64,000 nt of DNA. Origin: Polytrichum commune (Eukaryota > Streptophyta > Polytrichopsida > Polytrichales > Polytrichaceae). Every line of letters starts with the position of its first letter. The first letter of the stretch is position 1. The notes under the pieces are model-generated. The model was given only the letters and a program-made list of their open reading frames with translations. It was not told the DNA's origin and did no database searches. The position numbers and the translations under genes are program-made. The stretch is taken from assembly GCA_950295325.1 (NCBI GenBank), contig OX485807.1, forward strand, positions 9,637,001 through 9,701,000, written 5' to 3'. Shown here piece after piece: positions 10,559 through 64,000 of the stretch.

Positions 10559-10738
10559 GACTTCAATTCTTTCATAGCATTTCAATGGTAAGAAGAGTAC
10601 ATTACACAGAAACAGTTCTTCATTCCAATGGCATTTGAAAATACTGTTTCTCTGGACACCCCATTCCTTCCTCACACTCAAGTGGCCACAGTGTCTATCA
10701 TGGCTAACTTATGTCTGGTAAGCACCGGCGGTTAATTA

Positions 10739-11183
10739 GGGGCGGTTTACACTATGGACCATGAAGTCGTCCCACGGCCGTCTAAGCGATGTGATTGGAC
10801 GTTGAAGTCGTCCCGGGACGACTTGGGTTTACACCAAGGAAAAAATGGCAGAGTGACCACGGAGGTTGAGGTCCACAAAATATTATTTTTTAAGCCTACT
10901 CTATCCACTGCCATGGTCCAACGGGTTTTCCGTTGGGACAAGCAAAAGAGGTGGTCCGGGAAAAAGAGCAAGGGCCCATGTCAGAAAAATGCCGTTTTAA
11001 GCCTTTTTGGTGCATGGTCATTCTTCATGGTCCACATTCGGTTTACACCTAGTGAAGGGCCCATGAACCATGAAAACTAATATTTTAGTAACTCGGACCA
11101 TGGAAGTCGTCCCATGAAGTCGTCCCACGCAAAATAGGCCTCTTACGTGGGACGACTTCATGGTCCATAGTGTAAACCGCCCC
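10739..11183. mobile_element. PIF/Harbinger-like MITE with 38-bp perfect terminal repeats
   Basis: It starts GGGGCGGTTTACACTATGGA and ends with the exact complement. The first 38 bases of each arm are identical. Both sides carry TTA (10736-10738 and 11184-11186), the usual PIF/Harbinger target duplication. Length is 445 bp, with no coding capacity beyond chance frames. Additional copies of the motif ATGAAGTCGTCCC lie inside both ends. The perfect termini suggest a recent insertion. Confidence 0.88.
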
Positions 11184-11390
11184 TTAGTTGCAGATGAAAT
11201 AACTGGTTGAGTTTGAGAAATAACCGGTCGAAGTTGAAGACTTCAGGAGAATTACCCATCATGTTAAAGGAATCTATGGAAGAATATACCCACTCAAATG
11301 AATGAAAGCAAAACCAGAAGATGTTAACATGTAACCGGCTATATTTAGAATCACTAGGATCTTGGCCGACTATATATGCCCAAACACTAA

Positions 11391-12425: not shown

Positions 12426-12989
12426 ATCCGACAATTGTGAAATCTTAGTGGTGAGAATTCATCATGGTAAACATGCCTACAAAACATGTTAGGGTAATTG
12501 CCAAAAACATTATTTCATCAAGATAGAGTTGAAATGACGCAACTTTGGCGCCTTCCATTATAATGAAATTATGATAAAGTAGGTATGAAAATAAAGAAAT
12601 AAAGAAATAAAATGACATCATTTTTGACAGCCAACCAAAACTCATGATATATGTTTTTTTCCTCTATTATGTTCAAGTGTGTCAAAAGGATCCACTCCTC
12701 CTTCTAGTGATTGAGGATATGAACAATATATTAGATTTACGAATGGCTTCACATGTTTAGAGTTTTTTTTTTTTTTGTGTTCCCTAAATCCATAACATTT
12801 TACTGGAGAATGGAGAAATATTTCACTGTTGATCAACGTCCTAGTCATTGTGCATGTGAACAATACCTTAAAAATCCTTGCGCATTATTGGTTGGATACA
12901 AGGTGTTGATAAGTTTGGTCTCATTTGGACTCCTTCATAACTTCTTCAAGATTAACAAACTTTTTGAAAATTTAGTCAAAAACCCATTA

Positions 12990-14088: not shown

Positions 14089-14422
14089 TACACTAAATAT
14101 GATATTTAGTGTTTGATACACTAAATACAAACGCATACACTAAATATCAATAACCCTATGAAAGTAAGTAACGTTAAATGCAAACTCCAACACTAAATAT
14201 CAACTATGGTAATATGTGAAAGTTACATGCACAAATTTAGTGTTAATAAAGATATGAGAAAAAATTAACAATGATAAAAGGAGAAGGGAAGTGGCGGTAG
14301 GGAAGGTGGTGGCGCATTTATGTCTAACACTAATTATCAAAGAATTGAAAATTAGTGTTGAGCAGGATAGGGTGGTAACAACACTAAATATAATCAAACA
14401 CTAAATATCATATTTAGTGTAG
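14089..14422. mobile_element. MITE with palindromic ACACTAAATATGATATTTAGTGT ends (written in parts below), copy 1
   Basis: The left end reads TACACTAAATATGATATTT then AGTGTTTGAT. The right end is its exact complement over about 28 bases, ending AGTGTA. Each terminus is itself a palindrome. Both outer edges read TA, consistent with a TA duplication. The motif ACACTAAATA recurs at least five times inside. Length is about 334 bp, without a coding frame. Related copies are at 58039-58404 and, as a lone end, at 53525-53551. Confidence 0.78.
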
Positions 14423-33830: not shown

Positions 33831-36800
33831 GCGGCGGGTACGTATTCCGTAGTTTTACGTCATCAAATCATTGCAAAATCCAAACTTAGGGCTAGGTCCG
33901 TGTAGGTCGCCTACTATAATTTTGAAATTTTGAAATTTGTGCAAATTTGATGATGATGCTCCACAATCATGGATCCAATGGTGCACGTAATAAGAGTGTT
34001 GGTGCACGTTCTCTACAATGGGACGGGATGAGTTCGGACCAACTCATGGTGAAACCAAGAGTTGTACTTATGTGGCATCCTTAATAAGAATGGTTTATTT
34101 ATTTGTTTGTTTTGGTCCAATGTCTTGTGACCCAACAAGATGTTGAGGTTGACAAGATGACTCTTATTCACCCGTGTACGTTAAGGTAGGCCTTGTAGAT
34201 GTAAAAAATTTTGCTATTGAAGAAAAATGGGTGTGGTGCAAGTTTTGAATTACACTGTAAATGATGTGGGTCATGTTGTATGTCATTTTGTGATTAAGAG
34301 CAATTTATTGAAACACACCTTGTTATTGAAATTCCAAGTACAAATCTAAGTTATCTTTTAATTGTAGTATGAGTCTTGGTTAAGAGTTGGTTGTTTTGCA
34401 TGCAATATTTTTCATATGTGGTAAGTTTGTGTTGCATGCTTGGAGTTGGTGTGGAAGTTTGGACAAAGTAATTTTTTATGTCAGTTCATTGGGGATCGAA
34501 TCCGTTTTCAATCAGCATGTCAAAGGTTTGCTCTGTATAAACTGATATAAAAAGTTTTTTATTCAAACCTCCAAACCGACTCCAAGGTCCCCATTAAAAA
34601 CTTACCAAATGTGAAAAAAATTGTAATATGCAAAACAACCAACTCTTGACCAAATCTCCAATTATATTAAATTTAACCCTAGTATGTATTCAATTCCTAG
34701 TGGTGATTTTAATTGCCCACCTTTTGGAGATATGTTTGACAACGAAGATTTATATAAAGCCAAATTTTTTGGAAGCCCACATTTTGTCCACCATTCTCAA
34801 TTGAATGATGTGCATGATTGTACATATTGGAACAAGATATATGCTAAGAAAGAACTTTTCTAATAGAACTATAAACCAAAGTGTCTTGGTGTTGATCCAG
34901 TAATTGTAATGGTGGCCCCAACCATAAGATAACAATTTCCTATTCCTAGTCTACAACTACATATGCTATTTGATGTGGTTTCAATTCAAAGACATACAAG
35001 GCATTTTTATTATCTGTTGGTTGTCATTATAGAAAAATCAAGTATTTTCTCTCATATCGGAAATTATACAAAAGTGAACATAGTTTCCTCCATGAAGTGC
35101 ATGTAATATTAGACTATTAGCAAATACAAATGTTGGGAGTTGCACTTGTTAGGCACTTGTCAATCGCATGCATCTAAACAGATATTTGTTAGGTGAGACA
35201 CTTATGTGTGGGAACACTAGTATAAAACAAAAGTCCAAATAACGCACGTTTCAAACAACATGGTTCTAATATCGACACAACCATAGTCCAAAATAACATG
35301 ATGTTCAGTTGGTTCAGACCATGGTCGTGTTGATTTTCGAATTGTGTTCTTAAGAAGGGTGTTGCTAGGAACCCCCCCCCCCCTCCACTAGTGGAATGTG
35401 TCGTACATGCACAAAGTATCAACCACGGGTAGGTGGGTGGGTGGGTCCAAGAATTGCTCATTGTTTGAGAGTTTCCTAAGGTTCAAGAACTAGCTTGGAC
35501 TATGGATATGAGTATACAAAGACACATTCACCATCCTAGGACCGTGCCAACTTAGCAGACAAGAAAAGACATAAGTTGCGTGAAACAAAAGAGGGCCGGT
35601 GAATAAAAGTGATGGAGTGAGTGAGGGCATCGTGGCAAGTTCCTTAAGTTGGGTGCTCTCATCATTCGATAATGTAAAACTCCATATTGGCAATTGTTGC
35701 GTCTAGACATGCATATGGATGGGAGACCTTTTCCGTACCTCATGAAGACCTTAGTCAATGTGGGCAACGGATGTTGCTTACCACTAGATATTGTTGTAGG
35801 ATCGGTTTTGTTTTGTGTTGCTTTGTTTTGGTATGAGTATTCAATGCTCAAAGAATAAAAACACAACCTAGACACCTCACAAACGTCAAGGTGTGGTCAA
35901 GGAGTGAGGAACCAAAGATCCAAGACCGAGACATCTAGAGCTACCACCTAAGCAAACATACTAAAGCAACCACCACAAACAAGCGCAAGCCATGAGCAGA
36001 ATCACGAGTTTTTTATTTCTAATTTTATTTCAAAGTGAGGAACGTGAATTTTTTTGGTTATGTAGTTTGGTTTTATCATAACAACATTTGTGTTTGATCA
36101 TGAAATATTGGTCACAACATACTACTTACGTGAAGTATATAAGTAAGTATTTTTAATTTTATTATTATTATAGTAGTACTTGATTGATAATTTTACCACT
36201 TTATATAATACTTTATAAAACTTTACATTTTAATTACAAATACAATGTACATTCACCTTTGATGCACCTAGCCACACGTTCCTTTCTTCACTAGACGGCT
36301 TTTAAAAGGTGAACACAAGTAGTTCATTTTGAAACCTTGTTAAAGGCATTTATACATTGTAAGTCGTTATCAGAGTGAAGAATATTGGAGATCCAACAAA
36401 ATCAGAACCCATAAGCAATGCCTGTAATTAACCATTGCTTATGGTCAAGGCAAATAAAAGTCCCACGTTCGGTTTGTGCAACAAAGCATTTCACAAATTC
36501 CAAAAAGTGTGAAGTAGATTGATTTTTTGTCCTTAGTTTGATCAATTCCGGTGAATTCCACTCTAGAATGTCTTCTTTTGATGTGCTCTATGACATGTGC
36601 ACATGAACACAAATCAATGGTTGCAATGGTGGAAGCTTACATACCTCATATGGTGACAAATTTTACAACTATGTTACTAAGGGAGGTCCTCCGAATTCCT
36701 TCATAAGATAGTTTGAGGGACAACCTTAGTGTCCCCAACTTGGATGACATCATGCTAGGTTAAGGTGTAGATTCTACTACAAGTAGGTTTAGTACATGGG

Positions 36801-40179: not shown

Positions 40180-40601
40180 CACGGGGAGGTCACTCCATTG
40201 TCAAGTTGAACACCATGTGCGAACAAAGTTTGCTATCCCTATATTACATGCCATAGATAATTTAAATTTTTATGATATATTTTTTACATATACATAATTA
40301 TTAATAGTATCTTTCGTTAAAAAAATGAGATTTTTTGTCATCTTCATTTTCTTAGTAATTTTTTTAGTTCAATTCTGCATCATTCTAGTTAGACACGGTA
40401 TTTTTTATTAAAAAGAAAAAAAATAATCAAATTTAGTTATCATTTTTTACTATGTAATAGGTACTATGTATATCTACTCATGAAATTTTTTGATAAAAGT
40501 TTGACCCATTTTGGTGATGCTTTATGTAAAAAGTAGGATTTTTTACATGTAAAGTGTTTGCACGTGGTTGTTCAACTTTACAATGGAGTGACCTCCCCGT
40601 G
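40180..40601. mobile_element. TIR element (MITE) with 8-bp target duplication
   Basis: Left end CACGGGGAGGTCACTCCATT, continuing GTCAAGTTGAACACCATGTG. The complement of the right end differs at only a few positions over about 45 bases. TAGAATAC flanks both sides exactly (40172-40179 and 40602-40609); a preceding G also matches, so the duplication may be 9 bp. An 8-bp duplication suggests hAT, while long termini with 9 bp would suggest Mutator. Length is 422 bp, very AT-rich inside, non-coding. Confidence 0.85.
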
Positions 40602-43303: not shown

Positions 43304-43542
43304 CTCTGATCGGGGAGAACCGGCAGCTAGTTACAGATGAACCGGTTGAGTTTGACGAAGAACCAGTTGAAGTTGAAGACTTCACGAGAATTACCCATCA
43401 CTTTAGAGGAATTTATGCAAGAATATACCTCAAATTAGTATAGGAAAACCGAAGGATGTCGTCCACATGTAACCGGTTGGACTTGCAAACACTAGGAAGG
43501 ATCTCAACCGATTAGTATGCCCCAAAATCTCCCCGATCACTG
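43304..43542 (+). mobile_element. hAT/Mutator-like MITE, best copy
   Basis: It starts CTCTGATCGGGGAGAACCGG and ends AAATCTCCCCGATCACTG, so TGATCGGGGAGA is inverted at the two ends. ATTAAAGAG flanks both sides (43295-43303 and 43543-43551), a 9-bp duplication. Length is 239 bp, non-coding, with several ACCGGTTG or CAACCG motifs inside. Three more family members lie in the window, with 8-bp duplications at two of them. Confidence 0.85.
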
Positions 43543-47706: not shown

Positions 47707-48201
47707 TTAGGCAATCGGTATTAAAAATCCACCATAGCGGTAGATTTGTAGACTTTCTAGTTCAATGCATGACAATTTCTCGATGATGCAGGACAATTGC
47801 ACAAGACTCATATGCTTGTTGTACTTAAAGCACAATGTCTTGAAGAAATGACGACTACATAGTCTATGGTATTTAGTATCACATGCATTATTTGCAAAGG
47901 GCCTAAACAAGATGCCTAGAGGTCTAACACTGCCATGTCTGCTAATTATCAACATCACTCTATTTGTCAAGATACATATTTTTTGAGGTGCAAAATTATT
48001 TACATTCTGATATTTGGCATAGCAAATTGAGATGCTTATAGTGATAGTTTTGTATTTTGATATGCAAGAAGGTGATGTGAGTACATCAATGACATCTTCC
48101 GCAAAACAATGAAACAAATAGGAGGTAGACATGAAGAAATTATTAAGCATGCAAAAGACAAGTGTCATGTGGTTACACTTATAGCAAATCTTGTTGGCCA
48201 T
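47707..48201 (-). other. 164-codon reading frame of unknown nature
   Basis: After the glucanase this is the longest open frame in the window. It is cysteine- and isoleucine-rich (MANKICYKCNHMTLVFC at the start) and shows no known domain. Its middle overlaps a dispersed repeat, and the copy at 51.2 kb keeps a similar stretch (ILTNxVMxxISxxGxxRPxGI) before a stop. More likely a chance or relic frame inside a repeat than a gene. Confidence 0.2.
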
Positions 48202-48290
48202 TATCGTAACCTAGTAGGATAGACCCCATAATAGGGTAAGTGATATTGTTAGTCAGGTGACACTAATTAAATACCATAAATGGTGTACAT
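47890..48290 (+). repeat. dispersed repeat family R, copy 1
   Basis: It aligns with 51220-51720: GATGCCT(A/C)G(A/T)GGTCT, CTAATTATCAACAT or CTAATTGTCGGCAT, ATTTGTCAA(G/A)AT, GTGACACTA, then CCATAAA-GGTGTA. Same orientation in both. There is a short non-coding-looking gap between its end and the pogo-like element at 48336. Confidence 0.55.
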
Positions 48291-48335
48291 ATCTAATGAC
48301 ATAAGCCAAAAAGTGATATACAACGTTCTACGTTA

Positions 48336-49773
48336 CAATCCTACCTCTTTAATATGACATGTTCAGAAAATGAGAAAACCATCGTATTATCAAGGTGTCA
48401 CATATTCAATAATATGACAAATTGGACCTCTTTGTCATAATAATGAGGTATTTCATGAAAACACACATTAGATATTTTTCCACATATTTAAAAAAAAATC
48501 AAATGTCTTTACAAACCTGCAAATTTCTCTCATGAAATCTATGTGGAATTGAAGGAGGTTTCAATAGTTTGTTGATGCTCCCACCTCGAGAGCCAAATTT
48601 GTCCTCTTTCTCTTGCCATCTAGTTCCATCTTGATATTTGCAACCCCCAACCACAAATAAAATCACCAAAAGTATAGTTTGTACATCACCAGTTATTGTC
48701 ATACCTCTACCAAAACAGCTCAAAATTGAGCAAAAGTACCCACCAAAAGCTACATAATCTCAATAGTTTTTAACAATATGCAAATTAGAAAGATCGCATC
48801 ATAATTGACCTCATAATGTGCAAAAGTAGATCTTTGACTTGAAATCAACTTCTAGAAAACTCAACCAACCTTCAAACGGTTATAACTTTGCCAATACAAC
48901 TCAGAACTAAGCAAAAGTACCACCAAATGTTGCGTAGTTTCAATAGCATTCCAACAATATGCAGATCAGAAAGATTGGATCAAAATTGACCTCAAAATGT
49001 GCAAAAGTAGATCATCGTCTTCAAATCAACTTCTCAAAACTCAACCATCCTCCAAACGGTCATAACTCTCCCAATACAACTCAAAAATCAGCAAAACTAC
49101 CACCAAAAGAAGAGAAATTTCAATTTCTTTTCAACAATATGTAGATGAGGAAGATCGGATCGGAGTTGACCTCGAAATTTGCAAAAGCAGATTGTTGTCT
49201 AGAAATCAATTGCAGAAACTTAGCATGCCTTCAAATGCTCATAACTTTGTCAATACAACTCGGAATCGGACAAAACTGCCACCAAAAGAAGTGAAATTTC
49301 AAGAGCTTTCCAGCAACATGCTGATCAAAGAAAAATTAGCAAATAACGAGTTCAAAATGCTCAAAAACAGACTATGCACCGTGGTATAGGGTGTAGGTGA
49401 AAAATTGTTGCGAAAGGGATAGAAACTAATGAGTTTCTTGGTTAGGTTTCAAGAAAAATAAAATAAAAAACCTAGTCCCTTAGTTTTCATGTTTTAACAT
49501 CATTTCAAATGAATATATATATAGTCCACCCTTCACATGTGAAAATTATATAAACTTAATTTCAACTATGTACATACACATGTGTGGGACCCATCATACA
49601 TGCATTTATTACCTCTATGATATGACATTGTGGGGGTCTAGAAGGGTTGTATTAACAATGTCACAATCGTATTATAGAAGCAGATTCTGACTAAAACGTT
49701 TGATATACAAAATTTTATGTCATTACATGGAGGTTGTCATGTTATGGAGTGTCATGTTAAAGAGGCAGCACTG
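48336..49773. mobile_element. pogo/Tigger-like non-autonomous element, 1.44 kb
   Basis: The left end CAATCCTACCTCTTTAATAT, continuing GACATG, pairs with the complement of the right end CAGTGCTGCCTCTTTAACAT, continuing GACACT. TA flanks both sides (48334-48335 and 49774-49775). AATATGAC and CATAACATGACA-type motifs recur inside each terminus. The body contains four 180-bp tandem repeats. No transposase frame remains. It belongs to the same superfamily as 17336-18084. Confidence 0.72.
48718..49385 (+). repeat. tandem repeat of about 180 bp, four copies
   Basis: The landmark (A/G)CTCA-AA(T/C)-AGCAAAA-TACCACCAAA recurs at about 48718, 48896, 49076 and 49256, spacing 178-180 bases. Each unit also contains CAACAATATGCAGATCAGAA, TTGACCTC, GTGCAAAAGTAGATC, and AACGGT(T/C)ATAACT followed by CCAATACAACTC. 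The copies are diverged, so the array is not young. Confidence 0.82.
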
Positions 49774-49775
49774 TA

Positions 49776-50190
49776 CTTTGCTTCCTAAACCGACTTCAAT
49801 GGATTACTTACCATCAGGCAAAATGTTTGTCTCACATCCCTAAGTTACTGGCCCCTCGCCTCCCGATCCAGCCACACCCGAGTAACTTAAGAAAGCCACT
49901 GCAGTTTGACTTGTTTCCATATGAAACAAAAGAGTGAAGATCTGGTCCCACAAACACAAGCAACTTAGGGAAGTGTGCACAAGATATGGACGCAGCTCCA
50001 GACTTCAATGATGTGCGTTATTTTACATCCCGAACCCTCCTCGGTCTTCTACAGCAGTTCACTAGCTTATACCTAATAAGATAGGCAGAGAGCTCGGGGA
50101 GGATATGCACAAGAGTTGTGAATGACCTCACCACCTGTACTTGAGGGATGGAGAACTAACTAACTAACTGCTGGCGATCGACCATGGATT
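49776..50190. other. short gene-free gap
   Basis: About 415 bases between two elements, with more balanced composition than the neighbours. No gene or repeat was recognised. Confidence 0.4.
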
Positions 50191-50418
50191 CTATGATTGG
50201 GGAGAACCGGCAGTTAGTTACAGATGAACCGGTTGAGTTTGAGAAATAAACAACCGGTTGAAGTTCAAGACTGCAGGAGAATGACCGATCATTTTAGAGG
50301 AATTTGTAGAAGAATATACCCCATTTTAATAAAGAAAAACCGAAGGCTGTCAACATGTAACCGGTTGGACTTGCAGACACTCTCAACCAATTATGCCCTA
50401 AAATCTCCCCGATCAGTG
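50191..50418 (+). mobile_element. hAT/Mutator-like MITE, family member
   Basis: It starts CTATGATTGGGGAGAACCGG and ends ATCTCCCCGATCAGTG. CATGGATT flanks both sides exactly (50183-50190 and 50419-50426). Length is 228 bp. It aligns throughout with 43304-43542. Confidence 0.85.
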
Positions 50419-50704
50419 CATGGATTTGCGAAGTAAGCTTAACGATGACTGCCTGTGGAAAATTCCCATCTAGCTCGCTCATAATCGAAGGGTAGTCCAG
50501 CGACACCTTCACCGATCATGGTATGGGGGTCTTATGCAGTTACTTTTCCTTACTCGGACCTCTATATGTGATTGGTATGTGGTTCGGTGAGGATCGCAGA
50601 GCAAACATCATAGAAGACACATGTTTGAAAGAGATTGAGCACAATTGGGAGGACCAACGTATTTGGTTACGAAATCAACAAACATTGAGTTCCGATAACC
50701 ATAA

Positions 50705-51720
50705 CTAAAGCGAAGGAGGTTCGATTTTCTGTCTAGTTTTTGCATATGTTTCATCTTAGATTGGTTAACGCAACGCAAGTTTTGTTGTGTGAATCTAATC
50801 GGTAGAAGCTCGGGGGGGGTAGTCATTGGTTGGAGTAGCAATATACGTGCGAACAAATGATAGGGTATTTAAAAAACATGGGGGCAAAAAATTATAATTG
50901 GACTTAAGAGTAATATAGGGTATCAAAAATGGCACTGGACATCTTTAAAGTACTATAGGGTATGGAATAATAGGTAATTTGGAATTATAAGTAATGCAAG
51001 CCATTTTTATATTAACCCAAAGTAGAAATTTACATAATGATAGCATGTGAAAAAAAGAAGAGAATTGAAAGTAATACCCCCCTATAAAATAGTGGTTGTT
51101 CGCACCTATATCCTTAACTTTTTAACACACTGCCCCCCCCCCCCCCCCCCCGAGGGTAGAAGTTGAAGAACATGAAAAAGTAACCAAATAACACCCACAT
51201 ATCTTGTTGGTGGACACCTTAATCTAGATGCCTCGTGGTCTCAAGTTGCCACGTCCGCTAATTGTCGGCATGACATCATTTGTCAAAATAAGTAACTATA
51301 TGAAGTGAAAAAATATGTACATCATGGCATTCAGGTTAGCACATTGGGATATGTATGTGAGATGATACTTTTTCATTTTAGTATGCCAAGGGAGGATATT
51401 ATTGAACATACAAATGTCAAGTGTCGTGTGTATACATTTTAGTAATCAAGACAAAGATATTCATGAGCATACTAATGCCAAGTACCACTTGTGTACACTT
51501 TGAGTCAACTTGTAAGCCATTATGTAAGAGAGGCATACACCTCATAACACTATTGAGCATACCCATACCCAGATATTAGTAAGCACACTCGAACACCAAG
51601 TGTCATGAGATGACACTAATCGTGATTTTGTTGGTCATTAGTGTAACCTAATGTACGCCTCAAAATAGAGTAAGCAACAGTATTCTGCATGTGACACTAG
51701 ATGCCATAAAACGGTGTAGT
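50705..51720 (+). repeat. dispersed repeat family R, copy 2, interrupted by an insertion
   Basis: The left part (GATTGGTTAACGCAACGC, AATCTAATCGGTAGAAG) matches 58800-58880. After the insertion at 50809-51154 the match resumes (TTGAAGAACATG, CCAAATAACACCCAC). The right part (51220-51720) matches 47890-48290. This is the most complete copy of the family. Confidence 0.6.
50809..51154. mobile_element. MITE with G/C-run termini and 8-bp target duplication
   Basis: The left end is CTCGGGGGGGGTAGTC; the right end is a run of 19 C followed by GAG, so CTCGGGGGG is inverted at the two ends. Further in, ACGTGCGAACAA and the complement of TTGTTCGCACCT also pair. GGTAGAAG flanks both sides (50801-50808 and 51155-51162). 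The copy at 58.8 kb reads ATCGGTAGAAGTTGGAGAAC without interruption, an empty site. Confidence 0.78.
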
Positions 51721-52398
51721 GATCATTGTAGGTAAAGTGGACTGCACAAATTTTGATCTGCACCAGGTACTTCTCCAGAATCTGCATGAAGCCCAATGCA
51801 ATTGTAAGCAATATGCAATTATGCGCCATCCCTGTAGTCAGAATCGAATTACCATGACTGTGAGACTAAGTTGATTAATTTTGTGGACTGCTTGCTTGAC
51901 AGTTTTTAAAGAATGGAGATAATTAAGTTATGCTCACTCCACAAAATGCATGCATTGTCACTAGATTGTGGCTGGCCTAGACCAAAACCTAGGACATTGG
52001 AAGTTTTATGGAGTGACTCACTGAAGAGATGAGATCGAACGTGCTAGAAAATCACATGCAAATCAGGGTTGGGTACCAAGTCACTGCAACATTTGACAGT
52101 CATACGTTTATACACTGACACTCCCTTATCACATCTGCATATATACTTGTGTATTCAGAGTTCACATGGTGGTTTCTTTTCGGCATAATTCCGCACACTT
52201 TGTATTCAGATAATGCTTTCTGTAAGATTTTTCATTCACTGGATTCTATCAAATTCCACTTGAAGATGTAAGATGAGGAAGTACTAGGCCTTCAAAACTT
52301 GAGGGTGTTCACTGGCATGAGGGTGGGAAGTATTATGAATAGGCAGTCTCATGGCTCATACCTAGCTAGTAGCTTTAGTACCTCAACTGTGCTTGTAC
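51721..52398. other. gene-free intergenic stretch
   Basis: No recognisable gene, repeat boundary or terminal inverted repeat was seen. Confidence 0.35.
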
Positions 52399-52621
52399 CA
52401 GTGCCCAGGAAGATTTTTGGGCTTAAATCAGTTGAGATCCTAGTGTTTCCAAGACTGGTTACATGTTGACATCTTTGGGTTTTACTTTGCTAAATTGGAG
52501 AATATTCTCTAGATTCCTCTAAATAGATTGGCTATTTTCTTGATGTCTTGAATTTGAATCGGTTATATCTGAAACTCAACCGGTTCGTCTTTAATTAGCA
52601 GTCGGTTCTCCCTGTTCATTG
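52399..52621 (-). mobile_element. hAT/Mutator-like MITE, family member in reverse orientation
   Basis: The complement aligns with 43304-43542: AGGGAGAACCGACTGCTAAT, ACCGGTTGAGTTTCAGATAT, GAGGAATCTAGAGAATATTC, AACATGTAACC. The termini CAGTG and CATTG are worn. The flanks are GCTTGTAC (52391-52398) and GTTTGTAC (52622-52629), an 8-bp duplication with one change. Confidence 0.75.
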
Positions 52622-53020
52622 GTTTGTACTAAAGGACCATGCATATGTGGGTGCCATGTAAGTTGAAGGCGAAAACATTGGGATCCCTTCGACTCAAAAA
52701 TTTCTTTCCTCTTATCAATTTGAACTCATAATTAGCTTTCGAGACCATGTGTTACTTTTGTGAGATTAAGGTGGGGTGAACTACACTACATATTCTTTTT
52801 GAATGTCATTTATTAGTTGACATTATGTTATGCTATAAATGTTTATTTGTATATCTCATTTTTTGCCAACATGGATCAAAATGGTTGGTTGGAGACTATA
52901 GAACATTAAACACAATATTCAATATTTTGAGAGAGTGGGATCCTCTCAAAATAATATTGGCCATTTGGACACCTAAAAGTCATGTTAGGTTGATAAATAC
53001 TAGATTATACTTCAGACGTG

Positions 53021-53301
53021 TAGTTTCCATTAAAATGAGAGTATGTTAAGTTGGGAAATCGACTCATTTAGGTTGAGTCGACCTAAATGAGGACAATTAT
53101 GTTAGTCAATTTAGGTTGAGTCGACCTAAATGAGGACAATATGTTAGTCAATTTAGGTTGAGTTGACCTAAATGAGGACAACATGTTAGTCAATTTAGGT
53201 TGAGTCGACCTAAATGAGGACAATATGTTGTCAATTTAGGTTGAGTTGACCTAAATGAGTCGACTTCCCAGCTTAACATACTCTCATTTTCATGGAAACT
53301 A
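53021..53301. mobile_element. foldback element made of palindromic 42-bp tandem units
   Basis: The outer arms TAGTTTCCATTAAAATGAGA and its complement pair over at least 50 bases with about four mismatches, continuing through GTATGTTAAG and TCGACTCATTTAGG. TA stands at both edges. Inside are five units at about 53071, 53114, 53156, 53198 and 53239 (spacing 41-43). Each is centred on GGTTGAGT(C/T)GACC, itself close to a palindrome, followed by TAAATGAGGACAA. Almost the whole 281 bp can fold on itself. There is no coding frame. Confidence 0.85.
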
Positions 53302-53403
53302 TGGCGGAATTTATGGCGGAAAATCAAATGTTATTTTTTTACTTGTACTCTACAACTTTCCAATGGTTTTCATTTCATTCTTGGATTAATAGTTTTCTTT
53401 ATG

Positions 53404-53445
53404 TACTCTCAATTCAATGGAAAACTCTCATTTTAATGAATATTG
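53404..53445. repeat. degenerate echo of the foldback termini
   Basis: TACTCTCAATTCAATGGAAA and CTCTCATTTTAATGAA lie 100 bases right of the foldback element and resemble its right terminus. They may be the remains of an older copy or an end duplication. Confidence 0.45.
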
Positions 53446-53524
53446 TGTTATTAACATCTTTACTTGATAAAATGGTACATTAATTGCAAAAAGATATGGC
53501 ATTGTAAAAATCCAAATAGCAAGT

Positions 53525-53551
53525 GACACTAAACACAATGTTTAGTGTAGT
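53525..53551. mobile_element. lone end of the ACACTAAATA MITE family
   Basis: ACACTAAACACAATGTTTAG followed by TGTAGTG is a palindromic terminus matching the right end of the MITE at 14089-14422 (TGTAGTGG follows there too). No partner end was found nearby. Confidence 0.5.
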
Positions 53552-56500
53552 GATAACCTTACAAGGGATAGGTTGTTCTCAAGTTGTTATGGGACCCCTT
53601 CACATGGTTGTTTGGAATCCAAGCAACTTAGGTCAAGGATTTGTGGCGACCACGTAAGTTGAAGGTTGAAATTCTGAAAACCCCGTCCACCTTTGATATC
53701 CCCTTTTAAAGCATGTTTGACACCATTATTAGCATTAAAGACCCAAAATTACTCTAGTGAGATGTAAGTGACATTAAGTTTCGATGAATTAGCCATAAAC
53801 CTATGGAGGGGAACAAGCATGGTCAAGTATGCGGAAAAAATGCTTTAGTATACTAAAACCATAATTGTTTTGTTCAAACTCCTAAAAGTAGTAGCAAAAT
53901 GTTGTTCAAATCTAAAAAATTCATAGTGTCCTCTATTGTTGTGTTAGGTACTCAAATATACAATATGAAGATGGTATTTTTCAAAAACTTATCATTAAAA
54001 GTATTGCTCAAAAGGTAATGGCTAATTTTGGTTTTGGAAGTAAATTTCAGGACCTTAAATATTTGAAGTTGAATTTTTTCCATATTCCTTGAGTTCATTA
54101 TAAACTTGAGGGCACCATTACGAAAAATTCTAGAAAAAACAAATAATCATAATAATCATGTTTTAAACAATGTTAGAGAATTACATGTTCAATATATCTA
54201 CTTGCACACTACTTGCACCAACGTCTAAAATATGTGGACTTTTCTTGAAAAAACATTAGTCAACATAATTGCTTGGCTTTGTACATCAATGTGTTTCTCA
54301 AATATTTATAATATTTTCCTTCACAAAATTCAAAGTTAGTATATAGTTTTGAATCACTTTCACTTAAAACTTATGCAGGATAATGGAATTGCGTACTTGA
54401 CCGTGCTTGCACCCATAGGTAGGTTCAAATCTACCTTAATCACTAACATGGCTTTCACAAACCTTAAGCCGCAAGCTTATGAGAAGAAATCGCATCAATG
54501 TAAGTTGACCTAATTTGATCATTTATCTTAATCGGACACATGTGGAGTGGTGCGAGGTTAGATGTGGATCTAAGAATGGACATTGAAAAGACATGTATTT
54601 GGATGAGATTGGGCTACATGCTCTAAATTTGTTAACTTTTTTTAGTTCAATAATCAACGTAGTTGTGGGGGGGCTATGTTATGATGATATAAGAAGAAAT
54701 ATTTCCTTTTACTTCTTTTCTCCTCACCCTCCCTTCATGTCGGGTCTCTTATCAAAACTTGATTCATTACTACTATACCCTTCTCCGATGGCAAAAGATT
54801 TAGTAGAAGGGGGAAGACCACCAAGGGATTCACGGAAGGATAGAAGTAAAGACTTACCTCTTGGCCACATGGCTAAAGAGCAAACTTGTGATCTAACAAA
54901 TACAAAAGAAGAACTCGTTTTGAAGAAAGTTGCTCTCATATATTCGTGCACACCACCAACCACCTCACTTTTCTTACGCATCTAAATTGTGTTGTGTTGA
55001 CTAACCTATTCGGCCACCCCCTTCAATTTTCAAGCATATGTTGTGATGACTAACCTACTTTGGGAGTTATTTCATTACTCGTTACAGGCACCTATACACA
55101 CTTCAATTCGAGTTCACTTGCGGGTAACGGTTCCTCATTTTGGTTCACATGGTTAACCAATGAGCGAGCAATCAATTGGAATTTATATATTTTTAATGAG
55201 TCGCGACCTCCTAATGACTATGCGTTCCTTGGATCTTCCCTTTCCCTCATATGCATTGTGGTCATTAAAGCTCTAGAAATACCATGATTATGAATATGTG
55301 TTCCAACGAAAATGCATAGCAAGCAATGAATTAACCAAAGAAAACAAAAGACATATAAATATGAGTTAGCACAAGTTATGGTAGATTGATAGTCTGGATT
55401 GTTCCAATGCATTATTTTCAGTGGTGGTGAATACCCAATGAACCAATAATGACCTAATAAACCCCTACCCCAATTCTTCTAGCCTTATCCCTAGCTTCCA
55501 TACCCATCATTGCCCCTAAGTGCTCTCATTGGTTGTTGCTAGTTAACTCCTATATATTTATGGGACTCCCCATGTACTAATGACCCCAAACGGATTGAAG
55601 CCCACATATTTGGTGACTTTTAACCAACATTGCAAGACTTGGGTCAGCAATCTTACAACAAGAGCATGTCTAGGTGAAATGCATTTTGTTTGAGTAATTC
55701 AACATGTTCAATCCTCGAATACTTTAATGGAATGTTGAAAGTTTACAAAATTTACTGTGGCCAACTTAGCTTATCATGGTTTTCATCGCAATTTATTTGA
55801 GGCAGTTGTTTGAGGGACTTCATTCAAATGACGGACCTTTAGCAGCCTCGATCAAGATACAGATTCTCATGTTTTCTTCACCAAAATGAAGTCTTTTAAC
55901 CAATAATCATTTTCAAAAACGTCAACAAATCCTAAATTACATAATATACACGGAAACCGCCATGGTACTGTGGTACTAACTTAATGGTGAAGTTTACACG
56001 CATTCACCGATTCATAGTCAACTGTTTAAACCACGACAAAAGGCTGCTGTCATGCCCTTCAATGTTGTTGTGAGACCCATCATTGCAGAGTTCAATACTG
56101 TATCTCTAGAATCCAACATTTATTCCGATGCCTCTGATGAGACCCACAAAAATTGATACCCTAAAGAACTTTTGACACATATACATGGATGTAGAATTGC
56201 AGATGCTTTTAAAGTGGAATAATCATGCACAAGTCCATCAAAATGTTCAACAATAGTTGCAGCACGGAAGCTTGAACATGAACTTAAAAGATCCCTGTAG
56301 GCAACTACATTTTGAATGTGTACAGTTCTTGGACAAACAACGTACTAGTGCCAAATTCGACGCTTTTCATACACCGATGATGTCCCAAGATAAGGAAATG
56401 TTTTACAAGGATTATACACAACTTGTACAAAGATGACTGGTTCGAAACGCATAGGGATTTTGGTCTCATTTGGCAGTTGCATTTCCCCTCGATTTCGTGT

Positions 56501-57177
56501 CCATAAAACTGAAGTCTTCTAAGCAAGCAGCAACAAATTTGACAGAACCAAATTGATAAAGACTCGTATCCCTCTTTAGTGGTACATCATTCTTTCATTT
56601 ACCTATATTTATTGTCATAAATTGCCAATGTCAGAAACTTTGGAATCCCTGGGCTGACATAAGCAAGTGACTGATCTGTTCTCTCATCACTATATGCTCT
56701 TGCAGCACTTTGGATGTGTCATTCATTGCTCAAATGTCTTTAGACAACAATTGACGATTCTTGCCATAGGAATGTCTCATATACATAACAATCTTATCAT
56801 CGAAATTTACATGTAAGATCTAGAAATGTAGCAAATTTTGCATCTTCTCTGCTGACTAGGAGTGGATGCACTAGCAATTCCTTTTTTTAAACATAGCGTG
56901 GCCTGGTTTGCAATCGTACAGAATGTTTGGTTGTATAAACAAACAAGGCTTCTAACAAGGTACTGTGCACGTGACACTCTACCAGATTGAGGATTGGTTG
57001 GAAAGTTGGTTGGTGTAGATAAGAGTAATGGGTATGAGTGACATAATCTAGTAAATAGTAAGCAAATAAATGATGGTTTCTAATAGCTTCAATAAATCTA
57101 TATCAAGTCTGATTGCTATAATTTATTTCAAAAATTGAACAAGAATATGTATCCACAACACACACACACACACACAC

Positions 57178-57219
<42 letters not shown>

Positions 57220-58038
57220 GTTTATGTTTTATGGACACATGACACGTGAAAAAGAACAAGAAAAACTAAAACTTTGCATTTTCTACAATTGTGATTGAGG
57301 GTCCCTTTTTCCTATTATTTATCAAGCTGATCAACCCCACACTCAAGTTCAATGTATGCATGGGTATTGTTGGCATGTCAATAAGGAGGCTTTATTACCA
57401 AGCAAGCAAGCCTGTCCTTGGGTTAACAAAACACACATCCTTGCCATTCATGTTGTGGCCACATACCCGAGACACCTATTAGTCTATGTAGGGTCCTTGC
57501 TTCGTTCATGGCTTTAGCAATTGATGAGAGAGAGAGAGTTTTTGTTTGAGTCATTATCGAACGTGTTGAGATGGCACTGGCTGTGATTTCAAGCTGGACC
57601 GAGAAGGGAAGTGGGGTTAGGGTTTTAGGGTTTAAACAGTCATCACCGATGGTTGCAACCACCCTTGTTCTGTGATAAGCAAGCCGACATTCTTGTAGTG
57701 ATGTTGACTAAGCATGCCTATATGGGGATGATTGAATTTGGTAGGCCTAGTGAAGTATAGTATTGTGAGTGAAGTTTTGGAGGACCATGCACATAACATT
57801 ACCAGTTGAGTATGAAGGGTGGGTGGGGCCAGGAATAAGCCAGATTTTATGCAAGAACTATACCATAGATATTCTCTTTCAAGCCGTACTATCTCATGTT
57901 CAACCTAATAAACTCAGGTGAAGCACTATCACTCAATATTATTAAAATGAAACAGTTGTTAACATTTGAATAATGTTATGCAATGTTCTCTACCCATCTA
58001 CACTAATATATAGTATGAATATTTGGAGAAACAAAATC
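53552..58038. other. gene-free intergenic stretch with microsatellite
   Basis: At 53713-53830 lies the partner of the repeat at 46266. The words AAGCATGGTCAAGTATGC (53809-53826) and, inverted, GCGTACTTGACCGTGCTTGC (54391-54410) hint at a worn inverted repeat. A (CA)n then (TA)n microsatellite is at 57157-57216. A 130-codon plus-strand frame (54593-54985) and a 73-codon minus-strand frame (56305-56526) have no recognisable domain. Confidence 0.4.
57157..57216. repeat. (CA)n(TA)n compound microsatellite
   Basis: About 20 bases of CA repeats, a short GA interruption, then about 36 bases of TA repeats. Confidence 0.95.
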
Positions 58039-62676: not shown

Positions 62677-63906
62677 CTACATGCAACACTGTAAAGGGTG
62701 GATCAAAAAAACATTCCAGGGGTAAATCGTCTCACTTGGGTCAGAGCTGGTGAGTGTAGCACATCCCTGGAAATCGCATGAAGCACTGGTCTGGTTGTGG
62801 GACTGGAAGTAGGTATTGAAGGCCCAGTTACAGTGAGCTTGCAAGGTGTTGGGCAAGTAGCAACTCTGGCCAGACTGGATTGGCCCACAATTCACATTTC
62901 CTTGTCCACTGTTGGGTCCGCAGGCCCAGTCCAGTGCGCCTTGTAAAGCAGAGTCACTTATATTGCTCTTGGCAATACACCACACTTGGGAGGCAAGCAA
63001 GCGAGCATGTGGCCTTCCTCCTTCCAAGGTGAGGCGATGCATTGGCACTCCATCAAAAAAGTCCGTGACATAGATCCCAACCTCAGCTGTGGGTCTCATG
63101 GGAGTGCCAGAATTGGCACGAGCATGCGCAAGTAAATTCTCATTGTATGTCTGAGACAAGTGATCTCGTGATGGCCAGCTGGTTTCGGTGACAGTAATGG
63201 GAATGTCACTGAAATTGAGAGCCGCCATAGCCGACACCAGAGAGTCCAGAATTGCATCAAGGTAGTTCCCGTAGTGGAGACCTGTCTTTAGGTCATCTGT
63301 TCCCCGATTCTCCTTGAAGAGGTAGTAATCCAAAGAGACCACTTGGGTCATGGTCTGGTGCAGGAAGAATGGATACACATTCACCATAAATGAAGAGTTG
63401 GACTCTGAAAGGAACCCCAAAATGGGCTTCAACCACGAAGAATGTGAATGGTGGAATGACCCGGAGGAGGGAGGGGCGGATGTCCCCAGTACCAAAACAG
63501 AGCATGGAGTGGACACTTTGATGCTGTTTTGGAGCTTAACCGAAACCAGAGCAGCTTGGATGTTGCGCATGGCTGCAAGGAGAGCTTCGGGAGAAGCCTC
63601 GTCTCTTGTTACAGCTTCGTTACCCACGGCTATGGCAGTAATTTTGGTCGCTGCCACAAAAGGCAAAACGTTCTGCGCCAGCCAAAGATCTGCATTCTGC
63701 TGGGACTCTCCAATCTCCAGAATCTCGTGGTGGTTCACCCCAACTATCACCTCGATGTTGGTGTGCGCCAGTGACCTCAATACTGAGGCATCTGTGTTGT
63801 AGATCCGCACCTTGCCAATGCCATGGGACTGCAGTTGCATCACATCTACGTCGCTGCTGTCTGTGTCTTGTGGGTAATTGACCCCCAAGTGATTTGCTCC
63901 TGTCAC
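62677..63906 (-). CDS. GH17 beta-1,3-glucanase with C-terminal X8/CBM43 domain (partial, 5' exon missing)
   Basis: Glucan endo-1,3-beta-glucosidase, expected to hydrolyse callose-type beta-1,3-glucan in the wall or at plasmodesmata (family knowledge). The 409-codon frame opens with the mature GH17 start (LGVNYPQ, residues 7-13) followed by GKVRIYNTDASVLRSL. The proton donor is E97 in AIAVGNEAVT and the nucleophile is E241 in VTETSWPS, where GH17 usually has ETGWPS. The X8 domain begins at WC (309-310) and contains ALDWACG, PNT, AFNTYFQ and SCDFQG. There is no signal peptide. The first codon is GTG and an in-frame TGA lies upstream, so the true start is in an exon beyond the window. A splice acceptor (GACAG before GAGCAAATC, exon start about 63899) fits a phase-1 intron after the signal peptide. 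The sixth canonical X8 cysteine after the DPS motif is absent. A GT donor at 62735-62734 suggests the last 20 or so residues are intron read-through and that a further 3' exon exists. Confidence 0.88.
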   Translation of the reverse strand: MTGANHLGVNYPQDTDSSDVDVMQLQSHGIGKVRIYNTDASVLRSLAHTNIEVIVGVNHHEILEIGESQQNADLWLAQNVLPFVAATKITAIAVGNEAVTRDEASPEALLAAMRNIQAALVSVKLQNSIKVSTPCSVLVLGTSAPPSSGSFHHSHSSWLKPILGFLSESNSSFMVNVYPFFLHQTMTQVVSLDYYLFKENRGTDDLKTGLHYGNYLDAILDSLVSAMAALNFSDIPITVTETSWPSRDHLSQTYNENLLAHARANSGTPMRPTAEVGIYVTDFFDGVPMHRLTLEGGRPHARLLASQVWCIAKSNISDSALQGALDWACGPNSGQGNVNCGPIQSGQSCYLPNTLQAHCNWAFNTYFQSHNQTSASCDFQGCATLTSSDPSETIYPWNVFLIHPLQCCM

Positions 63907-64000
63907 TCCTGTCAGTCACATTTGAGTACTGAATCAGATTGGAATGTTGAATAAAGCCGTAAACAATCTGAAATTTCAAGGATGGATACTATAGGAAGCT
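63900..64000 (-). other. probable intron 1 (3' part) of the GH17 gene
   Basis: Upstream of the glucanase exon on the minus strand the frame is closed by TGA. The sequence is moderately T-rich and ends in GACAG, a usable splice acceptor; a second one (GACAG before GAGTG) lies nine bases further upstream. GH17 genes commonly carry one intron near the signal-peptide boundary, so I read this edge as intron. The first exon should lie beyond position 64000. No promoter is in view. Confidence 0.5.

Follow-up and report, generated by a model that had tools for sequence, protein, structure and literature searches.

What kind of structure is the 281-bp near-complete palindrome at 53021-53301, which begins and ends with TA (53021-53022 and 53300-53301) and carries a tandem array of smaller palindromes at its centre: a hairpin transposon with an amplified centre, the core of a longer element, or a local rearrangement that never moved? 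We addressed this question within the window, i.e. the whole 64-kb stretch of DNA that was analysed, and in sequence collections, family databases and the open-licence literature. The palindrome consists of the following parts:

53021-53301, no strand assigned: whole palindromic element, from TA to TA, supported by 78% self-complementarity and fold z-scores
53021-53065, plus strand: left terminal arm outside the array, pairing with the right arm
53066-53108, plus strand: unit 1 of the Tandem Repeats Finder array, 43 bp, GTCGAC form
53109-53150, plus strand: unit 2 of the same array, 42 bp, GTCGAC form
53151-53192, plus strand: unit 3 of the same array, 42 bp, GTTGAC form, near the centre of the whole palindrome
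53193-53233, plus strand: unit 4 of the same array, 41 bp, GTCGAC form
53234-53259, plus strand: core of unit 5 of the same array, GTTGAC form, abutting the right arm
53260-53301, minus strand: right terminal arm outside the array, pairing with the left arm

The two-scale palindrome, the array and the near-identity of its units are observed directly. At the larger scale, a repeat finder pairs 53021-53088 with 53234-53301 as arms of 68 nt each that are 90% complementary and take in unit cores 1 and 5; four of their seven mismatches fall within these two cores, and the other three within the outer 53 bp. The 281 bp match their own reverse complement at 78% over the full length, and among inverted repeats with arms at most 3000 bases apart this is the top-scoring one in the window. 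Folding of 53021-53301 gave -85.6 kcal/mol as DNA (mean of 200 dinucleotide shuffles -22.5, z -18.0) and -162.9 kcal/mol as RNA (shuffle mean -60.4, z -20.5), and in both cases 0 of the 200 shuffles folded as low. At the smaller scale, single units cut at 33-42 nt were folded against 300 mononucleotide shuffles each, and the observed energy was reached by 0, 2, 15, 3 and 6 of these for units 1 to 5, respectively. Thus, several claims of the first-pass annotation hold: the palindrome exists at two scales, the outer arms exceed 50 bp, the potential to form a hairpin or cruciform is borne out by the arms, the array and both sets of folds, and the folding that it had proposed as a check placed the element 18-20 standard deviations below dinucleotide shuffles. 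Four open reading frames of at least 80 aa are listed in 48000-58000, none of which overlaps the element. It has the structural features of a MITE, being short (281 bp), without a listed reading frame of at least 80 aa, and bounded by 68-nt terminal inverted repeats; it also combines long inverted repeats with internal tandem repeats, as foldback elements do, with the repeats forming the centre rather than each arm.

The array was delimited by Tandem Repeats Finder at 53066-53259 with a period of 42, 4.6 copies and 95% matches. Its five cores, 26 bp each, begin at 53066, 53109, 53151, 53193 and 53234, in steps of 43, 42, 42 and 41, and the fifth core abuts the right arm directly, so that the array comprises four full periods (43, 42, 42 and 41 bp) and a core. 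The earlier description of five 42-bp units is therefore right as to the period, whereas its fifth unit is a core only. The same description placed a GTCGAC-type palindrome at the centre of every unit; five cores are indeed present, but the long palindrome of each unit has the G of GAGTC as its midpoint; GTCGAC itself is found in three of the five (units 1, 2 and 4), units 3 and 5 having GTTGAC.

Comparison of the five cores revealed that they differ solely by C or T at the CpG of GTCGAC, and that differences among the four spacers are limited to one T/C substitution and two single-base indels. The changes in the cores are probably due to deamination of methylated CpG. The observed/expected ratio of CpG is 0.59 in the element versus 0.47 in the window, which does not favour strong deamination or long methylation. 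In each core, the left half has GGTTGA, although GGTCGA would be expected from the right half; should this also be a CpG change, it would predate the amplification. The array fits an expansion by slippage. Derivation of the spacers from the left arm, via the shared strings AAATGAG and TATGTTA, was not significant, the scores being reached by 522 and 445 of 5000 shuffles and by 187 and 168 of 1728 window segments. Units and arms have diverged to a similar extent (3/106 and 3/194 substitutions, hand-counted with indels left out; Fisher p 0.67), and the amplification is thus not datable relative to the insertion.

On balance, we slightly favour the reading that the 281-bp element is a non-autonomous, non-coding hairpin DNA transposon of a MITE- or foldback-like type, the centre of which has been expanded as a minisatellite. 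The following course of events may be envisaged: (i) an ancestral short, near-perfect hairpin element of about 113 bp, the shortest form that fits (281 bp less the 168 bp taken up by repeat periods), would have been inserted, perhaps at TA, and moved by a transposase encoded elsewhere, (ii) tandem duplication of its palindromic centre would then have raised the number of cores to five, whether through slippage during replication, a template switch at the hairpin or unequal exchange, and (iii) the whole element would have stayed palindromic throughout, because its units are palindromes themselves. If transcribed from end to end, the element would give a long double-stranded RNA. Plants usually process such RNA into siRNAs, and the element may have been silenced in this way. 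Mobility is plausible but unproven. The long, sharply bounded inverted repeats, the short interior and the other inverted-repeat elements in the window argue for the transposon; the lack of a second copy, the near-trivial TA and a better duplication at an outer repeat (52909/53449) argue against it.

No second copy of the palindrome was found within the 64-kb window. The 21-base core pattern, with up to three mismatches allowed, gave eight window matches, all of them inside the five cores, and a maximum of 0 matches in 100 shuffles. In viral contigs, a collection not of plants, exact-pattern scans with the core, terminal and core-plus-spacer patterns gave 0 matches each; blastn in distant mode with E up to 1 found no match among plasmids, again a collection not of plants. 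A search of the open-licence literature did not find the sequence of the element; six short stretches of it, looked for within words, matched 6 papers listed under human, mouse or nematode subjects. In prokaryote contigs, the degenerate core pattern matched 10 stretches, all titled Rhizobium or Rhizobiales. In the two whose surroundings were compared over 120 bases around the match, the 21-mer occurs once, between different arms and without a 42-bp unit; on these grounds the matches were rejected as relatives and are taken as convergence of a short palindrome, a judgement based on 2 of the 10 surroundings. As an observation in its own right, these Rhizobium-type genomes carry the palindrome TTTAGGTCGAGTCGACCTAAA beside CTAGAGCCGGA-like arms (L001 1131-1151 and L002 3761-3781, of the matched L001-L010). 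It resembles a bacterial palindromic repeat and is probably unrelated to the 281-bp element.

The window has a GC content of 38%; no tRNA genes were found in it and no Rfam family reached the gathering threshold. Seven stop-to-stop frames of at least 130 aa are present, six of which were run against Pfam, and one matched: a single 412-aa open frame at 62677-63915 on the minus strand encodes a GH17 + X8 protein, a beta-1,3-glucanase of plant type; among solved structures, its best relative is CJP38, a pollen allergen from a conifer. This gene makes it very probable that the window comes from a plant. The seventh frame overlaps this gene on the opposite strand.

Several other repeats were observed in the window. 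The inverted-repeat element at 40180-40601 has ends CACGGGGAGGTCACTCC, 47-nt arms that are 91% identical and a flanking 8-bp direct repeat TAGAATAC; going by the length of the duplication, it is presumably a hAT-like MITE. The inverted-repeat element at 10738-11184 has perfect 39-nt arms starting (A)GGGGCGGTTTACAC, GGGGCGG ends and 3-bp TTA flanks, and is presumably a PIF/Harbinger-like element going by its target site; a smaller palindrome lies near its right end, at 11112-11163. At 34357-34671, a further element of 315 bp is palindromic over its whole length (72% self-complementary) and lacks a clear target duplication. The element at 14089-14421 is another two-scale palindrome, with perfect 29-nt arms TACACTAAATATGATATTTAGTGTTTGAT that are each largely palindromic; by eye, 53527-53547 (CACTAAACACAATGTTTAGTG) appears similar. 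A dispersed repeat of about 200 bp occurs at 11175-11384, 43304-43542, 50191-50418 and, inverted, at 52399-52618 (71-81% pairwise identity), and 48698-49327 is a tandem array in which a 180-bp unit is present in 3.5 copies with 78% matches.

The first-pass annotation took TA at both edges of the palindrome to suggest transposition. The TA is indeed there, but as evidence for transposition it is weak and near-trivial for a palindrome, because a last paired dinucleotide that is self-complementary yields it free. Self-complementary dinucleotides make up 22% of the window, and direct repeats of at least 2 bp without slack turned up at 280 of 3000 site pairs drawn at random; for both reasons the TA edge carries little weight. 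TG likewise flanks both ends of the element. Within 4 bases of the inner edges, exact direct repeats reach no more than 2 bp, and most random pairs exceed this, 2109 of 3000 having a direct repeat of at least 3 bp at 4-base slack. As internal controls, 40180-40601 and 10738-11184 yielded signatures in the same target-site test, and the inner edges yielded only TA/TG.

These observations bear on the type of transposase that may have been involved. The TA at both edges is what a TA duplication of the Stowaway or Tc1-mariner type would leave, though it comes free at a self-complementary palindrome end. After TA, the ends read GTTTCCAT, which, compared by eye, does not match the Stowaway mask CTCCCTYYSKYMC. 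A target duplication of about 9 bp, as in foldback elements of the MULE/Mutator-like type (MuTAnT, FARE), was not found, the longest repeat near the edges being 2 bp. TA targeting would suit a Tc1/mariner transposase, but the ends depart from the Stowaway mask and there is no MULE-like 9-bp duplication. The TA-to-TA limits are candidate edges of the element.

Outside these limits, the flanks contain further features, including the possible ends of a longer element:

52909-52933, plus strand: candidate for the outer left end (uncertain) of an element of 541 bp, 52909-53449, defined by a 25-nt inverted repeat and ATTA
52978-52993, plus strand: weak unit-like fragment of 16 nt left of the palindrome, 14 of 16 positions matching
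53397-53438, minus strand: two degenerate end-like fragments in right-end orientation (suggestive only), from match counts against shuffled windows
53425-53449, minus strand: possible outer right end of the 541-bp element (uncertain), defined by a 25-nt inverted repeat and ATTA

The palindrome may be the core of a non-autonomous 541-bp element with ends at 52909 and 53449, or may lie inside an older element, related to it, that ends at these positions; we regard this alternative as unlikely, if worth weighing. It draws on the 25-nt outer inverted repeat (52909-52933 / 53425-53449, 84% complementary) and on a direct repeat at both outer edges, ATTA (4 bp) or, with one base of slack, ATTAA (5 bp). 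Taken alone, the inverted repeat is modest: of 1938 site pairs chosen at random, 18 score as high. Among 3000 random pairs, direct repeats of this length were seen at 24 (at least 4 bp without slack) or 37 (at least 5 bp with one base of slack). In a joint control, an equally good flanking inverted repeat was found in 48 of 4763 other window site pairs, 9 of which had an equally long direct repeat too; all 9 belong to 40180-40601, the only other element to match the combination. The outer right end and the inner left arm have 15 exact bases in common, and on the right side there are end-like fragments in the interval from the inner to the outer repeat. Their positions were picked post hoc, after the matches had been seen: 53421-53438 matches at 16 of 18 positions (maximum 15 in 30 shuffled windows), and 53397-53426 at 22 of 30 (a count attained in 1 of the 30 shuffled windows), the first part of the latter, 53405-53426, matching at 17 of 22 (reached by 11 of 30). 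A further end-like match at 12549-12578 (21 of 30 positions) was rejected, as 7 of 30 shuffled windows reached that value. Against the longer element stand its own post hoc discovery, the AT-rich region in which it lies, and a local comparison of flank with flank that gave no better match than the 25-nt repeat.

A local, never mobile origin, in which a template switch gave an inverted duplication and tandem slippage then produced the minisatellite, appears quite unlikely. The single copy in the window and the TA as the only duplication at the inner edges are what it would predict, and the adjoining end-like fragments at 53397-53438 may be a sign of local duplication; the arms, however, are long, sharply bounded and of MITE size, and several other inverted-repeat elements lie nearby. 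A hairpin RNA locus, i.e. a young MIR-like or siRNA-producing gene, whether transposon-derived or not, is very improbable: the RNA fold of -162.9 kcal/mol would suit it, but all 15 Rfam matches obtained for 52850-53500 with E up to 5 are far under their gathering scores (best MIR2863, 31.1 versus 94 bits), and no MIR family matched the element or the window at the curated threshold. Long arms with a repeat core suit siRNA precursors better than miRNA genes. That the array consists of host-selected sites for a dimeric DNA-binding protein can hardly be credited, since its five TTGACY hexamers (presumably the plant W-box core), although they exceed the 0.38 per 281 bp of the window and make the element the densest 281-bp stretch among those sampled every 50 bases, are copies made by the tandem array and not independent occurrences, and the only Pfam-recognised gene (six frames tested), at 62677-63915, is more than 9 kb off.

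The hairpin transposon with an amplified centre is thus the reading that we retain. Most likely, this real and well-formed 281-bp structure is an ordinary plant relic of the MITE/foldback type with an internal minisatellite, and no host function is proposed for it. Taken as a lone copy, it is one more ordinary repeat of plant type. If copies vary in unit number, they would allow the birth of a satellite within a hairpin transposon to be followed cleanly, and the hairpin would itself be the likely driver of the expansion. A stronger version, in which a mobile hairpin holds a central expandable palindromic minisatellite, extrusion drives the gain of units while palindromy and mobility are kept, and the element seeds a palindromic satellite, strikes us as improbable.

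Elements of this general architecture are already known, among them Tetris, miDNA4, BrickBuilt and MuTAnT. MITEs giving rise to tandem repeats are reported for Xenopus miDNA4 and Xstir, rye D1100 and the lepidopteran GTCY repeats (PMC9659126). Compared by description, miDNA4, a Tc1/mariner-type MITE of Xenopus tropicalis, is like the present element short and non-autonomous with an internal, tandemly amplified motif (PMC9659126); it is multicopy and gave a satellite, whereas here a single copy has a palindromic unit concentric with the terminal repeats. The foldback element Tetris, apparently non-autonomous, likewise joins inverted repeats with internal tandem repeats (PMC4079207), but it has terminal inverted repeats of up to 1,735 bp with repeats of about 220 bp inside them, whereas in our 281 bp the repeats form the shared centre. 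MuTAnT of Medicago truncatula comes from a plant as well; it was originally identified as an element of 292 bp, nearly all hairpin and TA-associated. It lies in TA microsatellites with 9-bp duplications, which are reported for MULEs, and the TIR mask GGGGTTTGCTAGAACA was used to mine for it (PMC4486113); none of these features is seen at the present edges. Stowaway MITEs share the TA target, the short length and the plant host, but have a terminal mask, CTCCCTYYSKYMC (PMC6881990), that differs from the ends found here. BrickBuilt of Porphyromonas gingivalis is, similarly, a MITE holding a minisatellite; it is bacterial, with 23-bp units without spacers, small inverted ends and 19 occurrences in one strain (PMC4596501). 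What the present element adds to these systems is slight: a palindromic unit concentric with the whole.
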